Source: Anaeramoeba flamelloides (Eukaryota; Metamonada; Anaeramoebidae). From it: a DNA stretch of 64,000 bases. Positions 8,375 to 39,390 of the stretch are shown piece after piece. Where the stretch lies: assembly GCA_027625915.1 (NCBI GenBank), contig JANTQA010000033.1:8432001-8496000 (forward strand), read 5' to 3'. Positions within the stretch are counted from its first letter, which is position 1, and each line of letters starts with the position of its first letter. Under the pieces are notes generated by a model. The model was not told the DNA's origin and searched no databases. It saw only the letters and a list, made by a program, of their open reading frames with translations. The position numbers were made by a program, and so were the translations under genes.

Positions 8375-9520
8375 ATCATGAAAAAAATTTTTCAAAAAAA
8401 AAAATTAAATATTTTCTAATTGTTCACTTTTTAATAACTTCACTTATAATAAACATTATGTGTTAATATTACGAGATCTTTGATCAATAATTTTTTGAAA
8501 TATATTTTACATTTTGAGTTGAAAAAACTCAATTTTTTTATTAAGATTTTTTTCAAAATTTAATACTAAAAAAATTTAATTATTTATTCTTTATAGTTAA
8601 GAGGGTATTTTATTATATTTCAAAAGAATTTTAAATTTAATGAATATATTTTAAATTGTAAATCAATTATTTTGATTATTGAAGGCTTATTTTTTGTCTA
8701 AATTGAAAAAAATATAATTTATTTGATTTTTCCTTGAGTTTTTTTTTAATTTGTGAAGTGTTCTAGTTTTTCTTGAGTTTTCTGTTTATTTGTAAAATCA
8801 ATAGATTTTTGTTGGGTTGTTTTGATTTTTCTATTTATTTGTGTAGTGTTCTGGGTTTTTTTGAGGTTTTCTATTTTATAGGGAAAATCTATTGATTTTC
8901 GTTAGGTTTTTTTGAGTTTTCTATTGATTTGTGAAGTGTTCTAGGTTTTTTTGAGGTTTTCGATTTTATTTGTGAAGTGTTCTAGGTTTTTTTTACTTTA
9001 GAAATAAACAGAAAATTTATTAAAATTTTCGGTTTATTTCTAAAGTAAAAAAAACCTAACGAAAATCTATGGATTTTCCAAATAAATAGAAAACTCAAAA
9101 AAACCTAACGAAAATCAATAGATTTTCGAAATAAAATAGAAAACATAAAAAAAACCTAGAACACTTCACAAATATAAAACAGAAAATTGCAAGAAAAACT
9201 AGGTACTCTTTGGCACCTGATGGGCACTTTTTGTTCGGTTTTCGAAAATTTATTATGATGGAATTTTTTACCTTTTTTTAGTGTTTTTAGATATATAAAA
9301 TGTTTCAAAACTAATAGTTATTATCTATTCAAGTGAATATCGTAACGTCGAATTGAACAAAAATTCCTTATCAAATTTATTTGAATTTTCTAATAGTAAA
9401 AAAAAAAATTCCCGGGCAAGAGTTTTATAAAAACTGTGAAACTACTAAAAGTAATGAATACAATAGCACCATGGTTTTTAAGTTATGGAATATTATTTAT
9501 ATTAAAAATAAACTTTATTT
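8375..9520 (+). repeat. Foldback-like repeat C, copy 2 (about 1.1 kb)
   Basis: The left flank contains ATAATAAACATTATGTGTTAAT and GATCTTTGATCAATAATTTTT, shared with 23.17 and 56.82 kb. The centre has tandem modules GTGAAGTGTTCTAGGTTTTT / TTGAGGTTTTCTATTTTATT. A long hairpin follows (TTTACTTTAGAAATAAACAG against the matching TTTATTTCTAAAGTAAA), then modules in reverse complement ending AACACTTCACAAAT. The right flank contains AAAACTAATAGTTATTATCTATT, shared with 24.1 and 57.43 kb. Modular inverted arms are typical of foldback elements. No transposase frame is present. Confidence 0.75.
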
Positions 9521-16460: not shown

Positions 16461-19400
16461 TTACAAAAATGTTTTTTTTTTTTTCACTCGGTTATAAACT
16501 CGTTTTAAGAGTTTTTTTGGTAATAATTTCCCATCTTCCGTATAATGGATATTTTTAATAAATTGCTTTTTTGATAATTGTATTCTAATGGCAGAATTAG
16601 TGATGTGCGTGATTAATAAAATTATACTCATGACTAGCACATATACTGAATCTATTTTTAGGTGTAATTATAATTTTGATATTTAAATAAAAAAAAAAAA
16701 AAGTGTAATTATATTAAATAAATCATTTTTTTTTGTTTAAAAATATGTTACTTGTTAAATCTAATTTTGTAGACTTTTCAAAATACTAAAAAAAAAAAAA
16801 GAATAAGAAGAAGTATACCCGAAGAAGGATATAGCTTTTCGTTTTGAGTATAGAATTCATTGGCAAATCCCTGGGAAAGTCTATCAAGAACTTGCGATTC
16901 ATTTGTACACGCGAAAGTACTGAAAAAATCAACCAATGCAATTTCAATGTTTTTTTGATAAAAATTAAAACATTTTAAATAGTATTTCAAAACCGTTTGA
17001 GAAAATTTTTGCCTATATAAATATTATCATTAGATTAATTATAAAAATATGTAAAAATAAAATATTTTATTTAATTAATTACATCAAAAAATAAAAATTG
17101 AAAAATAATATTAAAATTTTCTTCAAGAGCATGTATAATTTTGGTCTAGAAAGTAAACTCAATAGAAGGATTGATTATTAACACCAAATCATCAGTATAT
17201 GATTATATTAAAATTTTTAAAGTTAAATTATTGGGAGAATGGGATCGAATTCAAGACCAATTGAAAATTAAATCGATTTTTATTTAACATAATTTAAGTT
17301 TATCTCAAAGTTTAAAGTGTTAAATTAAAGAAAAAAGGAATCATTATAAAATCTGTTTTTGGAGATCATCTTTCAATAATTTAATCTTTAATATATCTAG
17401 GTGATTTGATACTCATTTTTATTAACGAAATTTACTTTTTGAGATTATTTATTCCCAAGTGGGTTTTAAAAATTACAAATATAGGATGGAAAGAAAACCA
17501 TTTTTAACTTGAATGTTTGGTCTAAACTAAATTTTGTCTTTTGTTAATTGAAGAAAAAAATAAAAAAGTTCAAATTAATTCCTTGAACTAACTTATAGAA
17601 AGAGAAATTTAATTTCTATTTAGTTTTTAAAAATTGTTTATTTTTGGTATGGCCTGTTGCACCATTGGTACAGTAAAAACGATTTTAGTTTGTTTTTTTA
17701 CTCTTGATGAATTCCAATGTGAAAAAACATTATTTTATTTATTTATTTACTGTTGATTGTAAAATAAAAAGATGAAAATTTTTATTCAGCTTTCCATAAA
17801 AACCATGACAATAATTAAAATAAATTATCAAAGTCCCCAATTCTCAAAGGAAAAATGATAATTTAAGCTTCTTTTAAGGGACTAGTCTATATTAAATTTT
17901 TTTAGGTAAATTTAATAGAGATATAGAATTTTTTTTGCCAATTACTTAGATTTCAAATCAAAGTGAAAAACTTCTTAGTATATTAACTAAATCTTGCTAA
18001 ATGACATTCATTAAATTTAGTTATTGTTTTTATAGAAATAAAAACTTTTTGCATTTTTTCACTTTTTTGAAAGTTGCTTTTTTTCAACTTTTAGCAAAAA
18101 TACAAAAAATAAAAAAAAATATGAGCAAGAAAGCAAAACCTTGTTATGTTTGTGGAAGACGTACAAAAAAATAGTTTGAAAAATAAACCTGAAAGGTTTT
18201 TTTTGGATTTGCATGAAAACATAGTTTGATTCGAAAAAAATATACAATATATGCTTTACTCTTAATAAAAGATTTTCTTTTTTTTTCTTTTACCATACTT
18301 TTTTTTCATGAATCTACTTTTTCAGTTTACACTCTTTTGTTTTTATTGAATTTGAAGTGTTTTTAAGTCTTCCCAAATGACCATCCCAAAAGTTTTTGTC
18401 AGAGTCAAAAAAAATCAAAGAAAAGAATAAGAACTATTTAAAAAAGTAATTTTTGATAAAACAAATTGAGTTCTTTATAGATTCAAGTTGGATGAATAGA
18501 AGTGAAGGAGAAAATATTCACTGGTTTTAAATTATTTTTTCGTTTTTAAAAATGAGAATAAATATTATTTTTGAGAAAATAAATAAATCCAAAATTAAAC
18601 AAAAATTTCTCAATCATTTAAGATCTTTTTTCAAAAAAAAATTTTTAAAAGTCACTTTTTTTGGCAGAATTGTAAAATTTTGTTAAAAACAAGAACTAAA
18701 AGTTCTAACATTGAAAAAACCTGTCTATTTTCAATTTTAAACATATTTCAAGATAAGGATTCCTTATTTAGTTATTGGACAAAAAAAAAATTAATATAGA
18801 CTAGTCACTTAAGAATTAAAAAATTGGAAATTTTTCCTTGATTTTTAAAAATCTTTTTTGGAAAGTTGAATGAAAATTTTGTTCATTTTGTTAAACAACA
18901 AATAGTATTAAGAGAACATGCTAGTTAAAGAAAATTTATCAAATAAAAAAAGAGAATAAGAAAAATAATTAAAATATTATTATAATAATATCATTTTCAT
19001 GACCAAATTAAAAACTATACACGTTTGTTAGATTTTCGATGATTTGAAAGAATTGAGTGAAACCAAATAGTTACTAAATTCTTTTGAATTCTTTAAAACT
19101 ACAGTTAGGTTTTTTTTTTTACTTCTTGAAATAAAAAGAAAATTAAAAATGAAGTGAAAATTTTTTCCGTTTATAATTCAATGACCAGTATCTTTTTTTT
19201 TTGTATCTGCTTCTTATTTAAAATCTGACAGAAAAAATTGTGGTTTTCAATAAATTGTGTCTCAAAAAATTGACACAAACGAAAGAAAAGAGATTGTAAA
19301 AAAAATTATTTACCTTGAGCTGAAAAACTTTCCTTTTTGAGAAAGTTTTAAATTCTTTGCATTGAACAGAAATTTCGCAATTGCTTTGTAAGATGAACGA

Positions 19401-39162: not shown

Positions 39163-39390
39163 GATTAATTGCAAAATAATAAGATCAAAATTTTTATTGC
39201 AGCTTTCCAAAAGAAAAATCTATCAAAGAATCTAAAATAAATCACCAAAGTCCTCAATTCTAATAAGGGGTGAATTTAAGCTGATTTTGAGAATTAAAAC
39301 TTTGAAATGTTCCCTGATTTATCATATCTTTTTTTGGAAAGTTGAAGAAAAATTTAGTTCCATTTATTTTGCAACAAATAGTACTATTAC
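39163..39390 (+). mobile_element. MITE family H, copy 2 (intact)
   Basis: Inverted arms: TTGCAAAATAATAAGATCAAAATTTTTATTGCAGCTTTCC on the left, and TTTGGAAAGTTGAAGAAAAATTTAG with TTTATTTTGCAA on the right. It provides the empty-site comparison for the insertion at 17.88 kb (TTTAAGCTGATTTTGAGAATT). Confidence 0.7.

Follow-up and report, generated by a model that had tools for sequence, protein, structure and literature searches.

The stretch of Anaeramoeba flamelloides DNA analyzed here (64,000 nucleotides, referred to below as the window) contains a repeat, H, that is interrupted by a second element, N, with TTAA on both sides. The locus raises the question of what kind of transposon N is and which transposase would have moved it; the initial annotation had answered with piggyBac. 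The features that bear on the question are the following.

17744 to 17873, forward strand: left part of the interrupted H repeat, 75% match to the H copy at 39 kb
17874 to 17877, no strand: left TTAA of the target duplication
17878 to 18808, forward strand: element N, 931 nt, a MITE-like, non-autonomous transposon that differs from the family consensus by 3.3%
17878 to 17903, forward strand: left terminal inverted repeat, beginning GGGACTAGTCTATATTAA; the arms of 30 nt including TTAA are 93% complementary
18121 to 18174, forward strand: remnant frame of 17 codons, MSKKAKPCYVCGRRTKK, frameshifted relative to the consensus and with no third-position excess of changes
18783 to 18808, reverse strand: right terminal inverted repeat, an inverted-repeat match to the left end
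18809 to 18812, no strand: right TTAA of the target duplication
18813 to 18910, forward strand: right part of the interrupted H repeat, 76% match to the H copy at 39 kb
39165 to 39383, forward strand: uninterrupted H copy, with TTGA at the homologous site

Positions 17874 to 18812 consisted exactly of TTAA, 931 nt and TTAA within H, and the description of a 931-nt element between duplicated TTAA sites was therefore correct to the base. The inverted ends, given earlier as 18 nt, proved to be longer, extending 26 nt past the TTAA. In a consensus built from 40 sequences, 29 of the 30 outermost positions were the same at the left and right ends, which diverged further in, and the termini were GGG...CCC. 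When the end motif was searched for in the window, just two near matches were obtained, corresponding to the two ends of N itself.

The empty site could be reconstructed by joining the flanks of N, which aligned with the uninterrupted H copy at 39 kb with 76% identity over 239 positions. The target site of that copy reads TTGA, versus the TTAA around N. Another 20 uninterrupted H copies were inspected (the next-best 20 of 40 scored, from 2,879 candidates genome-wide), and TTAA was present at the exact site in 4 of them; the other 16 carried variants, with TTCA in 9 of the 20. Since only unbroken matches had been chosen, these copies are free of N by selection and provide no gauge of the occupancy of H by N. 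The borders, the flanks and the H alignment bear out the earlier picture of a non-autonomous transposon that is nested in another repeat, targets TTAA and has an empty site that can be reconstructed. H itself, a repeat spanning about 220 nt, has inverted ends of some 55 nt, visible as reversed matches, and is MITE-looking.

To place N within a family, a search was made of the 254-Mb genome assembly, which is AT-rich and comprises 76 contigs. The terminal 22-mer of N, with at most one mismatch allowed, gave 970 matches (485 forward and 485 reverse), whereas its reversed control gave 0 and 1. A DNA search with N yielded 1,645 candidates, 40 of which were scored; all 40 were, to within one base, full-length, with identities of 91 to 100%. 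The copies compared with that of the window were the 39 other scored copies plus one carrying a nested insert, and lengths including TTAA ranged from 937 to 946 nt in 39 copies, the one with the nested insert being left out. TTAA was found on both sides in 36 of these 40 other copies, and one flank was altered in 4. Among the 100 exact GGGACTAGTCTATATTAA ends listed of 346, 96 were directly preceded by TTAA, a figure that results from comparing two match lists (exact GGGACTAGTCTATATTAA ends and zero-mismatch terminal matches); TTAA makes up 1.7% of the 4-mers in the window. Two of the copies (L013 and L016) share a single TTAA within one repeat but lie there in opposite orientations, which shows that N has inserted independently at one TTAA.

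The distance of individual copies to the consensus ranged from 1.3 to 6.9%, with a mean pairwise difference of 4.4%. At 16 columns of the alignment a second allele was present in at least 8 of the 40 sequences, so that the star-like pattern is a rough and not a strict one. As far as the sequences tell, this range of divergence and the roughly star-like pattern suggest a single, fairly recent burst of N. Its shortness (931 nt), inverted ends, high copy number (several hundred copies, nearly identical) and homogeneous length, and the lack of a transposase, are those of a MITE. Two copies were found in composite surroundings: one (L048, positions 643 to 1152) was broken by some 510 nt belonging to another repeat, a similar sequence (AATAAATGGCCCA...) occurring in L087, and another (L030) lay at the center of a palindrome (taacggcagtttttttt...aaaaaaaactgccgtta), apparently within another inverted-repeat element.

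Duplication of TTAA is common to piggyBac and Kolobok, according to PMC9587614, and the rule given for Kolobok termini is 5'-RR..YY-3' (PMC9587614 and PMC6004289). N, with its GGG start and CCC finish, follows this rule, and it resembles the autonomous Kolobok elements, as described there, in TTAA duplication and in 5'-RR..YY-3' ends, differing from them in having no transposase. The T2-MITE family of Xenopus, as presented in PMC6004289, is like N in that it targets TTAA, has terminal inverted repeats starting with two purines, is present in many copies and has no transposase gene, and its members are presumed there to be moved by Kolobok transposases. T2-MITE ends begin with AGGRR (PMC6004289), versus GGGAC in N.

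N is most probably a non-autonomous, MITE-like Kolobok-type DNA transposon moved in trans. We infer its superfamily from the ends, the target and the co-resident transposases, and not from a partner of its own. The ends of N would be bound by a DDE transposase of the Kolobok type encoded elsewhere; the element would be cut out next to TTAA and joined into another TTAA, which would be duplicated, and the copy in the window would in this way have landed in an older H repeat. As a Kolobok-type MITE, N is ordinary in kind and new as a family, although the finding that no N-like family was named in the open-access literature searched counts only weakly towards its absence. The step from a TTAA duplication by itself to piggyBac is a common shortcut, which N corrects. 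A well-preserved, high-copy MITE of probable Kolobok type in an AT-rich eukaryote also offers many copies for dating and for the mapping of insertion preference.

The genome contains two TTAA-flanked families with a Kolobok-like transposase core, KolA and KolB. A genome search with the profile PF20700, which we take to be linked to Kolobok, gave one match, at a KolA locus (L091) on contig C48 (24.3 bits, or 31.6 with its neighbors, for a cut-off of 26.5), and none in any of 14 control genomes. With hmmscan, two KolA fragments matched PF20700 under the cut-off (24.2 and 19.8 bits), whereas L091, L107, L108 and most other fragments taken alone gave no match to the profile (in one scan, 2 of 10 members did); the support from Pfam is thus weak. 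A query of 450 amino acids from the 654-amino-acid frame of L091 produced 45 matches from 52 candidates, corresponding to 17 KolA places and the two KolB loci. For at least 13 of these 17 places, stops occurred in the best match, and young copies of KolA measured about 4.2 kb.

In the alignment of the KolA and KolB cores (A1), the motifs DxGW, KDGD, DxNH and H-x4-H-x2-C-x-H were recognized, together with an E in NES or CES. The H2CH zinc-finger-like motif lay between the second D and the E in all six rows of A1 that cover the region, which belong to KolA and KolB and not to N. The motifs by which Kolobok is defined, DDD/E with C/DxxH between the second D and the E, are carried by KolA and KolB, whose ends differ from those of N. 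The THAP domain, usual in the Kolobok elements of frogs, was absent from the KolA and KolB frames scanned, from which upstream exons may be missing; some Kolobok lineages have no known THAP. A PDB sequence search with A1 gave four weak, unrelated matches (best E value, 0.095), and the predicted KolA core structure had a mean pLDDT of 45.6, too low for use.

The KolA right end, GGACTACG, adjoined TTAA in most copies read. In five of them CGTAGTCC was followed directly by TTAA; variants were CGTACTCC before TTAA in one copy (L098) and CGTAGTCC before TTAC in another (L103). At the left end, TTAA was followed by CGACTACG in three copies and by GAACTACG beside L091. The RR rule was kept by the right end and by one left end and broken by the three left ends that start with CG; these left ends, and the scanned KolA and KolB frames without THAP, are differences from the Kolobok superfamily as described. 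The two KolB copies were 97 to 98% alike, with ends about 6.1 kb apart in the copy on contig C34. TTAA was followed by GGTTTACAATCCC at three of the four KolB ends and by TGTTTACAATCCC at the fourth, on the right of the C34 copy.

KolA, KolB and a third fragment, used as queries, retrieved just KolA and KolB places (20 matches of 22 candidates for the KolB query and 31 of 34 for the third fragment), and no transposase-bearing element with exact GGGACTAGTC ends was among them. The similarity between the interior of N and the KolA and KolB loci was no better than chance, being equaled by 19 of 100 shuffles. Similarly, in the comparison of three further interiors (L083 and the B and E families) with KolA and KolB, none beat the best shuffle. 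The string GACTA after TTAA is common to KolA and N, with an offset of one base. A search for longer N copies by the end pattern, with the next bases of N excluded, gave 291 places, and the 8 examined among the 100 listed contained no partner, being other short families or derivatives with TTAAGGGACTAGTC in common (B, C, E and L083); a subterminal pattern search gave 18 places, and the 4 examined of these were short derivatives only.

Several short families (seven loci) share the end TTAAGGGACTAGTC with N and little else. Lengths including TTAA were 1,112 nt for family B, in the copy read, 408 nt for L083 and about 790 to 840 nt for E. Members of the C family, of about 180 nt including TTAA, are N-like in their first 84 and last 102 nt, and in L088 ends of the C type surround a different interior. 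One type of end on different interiors is what would be expected if a single transposase had once moved them all. Two candidates for larger elements were rejected: L085, considered as a KolA derivative with N-type ends, turned out to be a separate E element beside a KolA fragment, and L086, considered as a 1.9-kb element, has a C-type MITE as its right end and another palindromic element as its left part. A short palindromic element (ACAGTCAGTTTCACTTTTAAGGCACAAA...), about 200 nt in length, was scattered in and around piggyBac, Kolobok and MITE copies at nine loci, L086 included.

The lack of a transposase partner with exact ends and the failure of the N interior to match either KolA or KolB could also be explained if N belonged to another TTAA-using or undescribed DDE superfamily, whose transposase would be unrecognizable by the models used or lost from the genome. 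Sola3, which uses TTAA, would be an example. We consider such an origin unlikely, since RR..YY ends combined with TTAA fit Kolobok and TTAA-flanked, Kolobok-like families are present in this genome.

Mobilization of N by a transposase of the piggyBac (DDE_Tnp_1_7) kind, which the initial annotation had proposed, is quite improbable. N does share TTAA duplication with the piggyBac superfamily and its MITEs, a feature that fits without being diagnostic, and DDE_Tnp_1_7 is present in the genome, where the PF13843 profile gave 81 matches from 94 candidates. However, piggyBac ends are usually CCC..GGG, whereas N has RR..YY ends, starting with GGG and finishing with CCC. Furthermore, the ends of N (GGGACTAG) were absent from the 30 DDE_Tnp_1_7 loci inspected among the 81 matches, each comprising the match and up to 1.5 kb per side; with partial matches, element ends could fall outside these flanks. 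The longer, N-ended copy encoding DDE_Tnp_1_7 that had been put forward as confirmation was not found within the same 30 loci, and the assignment to piggyBac is thus unsupported. The sole matches to the N end with two mismatches were one identical string at eight loci of one piggyBac family, falling within the matched stretch at four of the eight.

That family, the only piggyBac family with readable borders, argues in the same direction. In these elements of about 2.4 kb, borders were read by copy comparison at seven insertions on six contigs, the overlapping L072 and L076 being counted once. The flanks were ATAT on both sides in six of the seven insertions and GTAT on both sides in the seventh (L060), and the ends were mostly GTCC..GGAC. 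Two of the insertions, L056 and L076, have flanks that look alike by eye and may go back to a single insertion that was duplicated. As its own reverse complement, ATAT could also belong to the piggyBac element, so that L060 alone argues for duplication. We offer as a tentative but quite possible reading that the use of TTAA is divided in this genome, with elements of the Kolobok type (KolA and KolB, and also N if judged by its ends) using TTAA and the DDE_Tnp_1_7 elements duplicating ATAT and, once, GTAT. If so, the TTAA specificity of the piggyBac transposase would not be fixed, and a natural variant would be at hand for mapping its determinants; elements with a piggyBac domain and ATAT flanks may outweigh the finding of N itself in value.

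That N is a duplicated genomic segment and not a transposon can be dismissed, since, although two copies (L012 and L023) share flanks and probably stem from one insertion that was duplicated along with the DNA around it, few other pairs among the 40 copies have related flanks, the borders are exact with TTAA on both sides in 36, and uninterrupted H copies exist.

The small peptide inside N, CYVCGRRTKK, had been named, with the GGG start, as a reason for pinning down the family; it proved uninformative. In the consensus, the frame has 35 codons (MSKKAKPCYVCGRRTKN...HENIV) and follows an A-rich leader, and it is open in 31 of 40 copies. Changes at codon positions 1, 2 and 3 numbered 38, 52 and 28, respectively, a distribution in which, judged by the substitutions alone, there is no sign of selection on the peptide within the N family. 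Around the 150 peptide matches scored, of 730 candidates, no frame longer than 90 amino acids was present, and a comparison of the peptide with Pfam gave three weak matches, all under the cut-off. As a guess, the peptide could represent the beginning of a gene that has since been lost.

Elsewhere in the window, positions 8734 to 8993 are occupied by tandem arrays whose units, about 41 and about 90 nt long, have GTGAAGTGTTCTAGG in common, and a similar array lies at positions 2697 to 2882.
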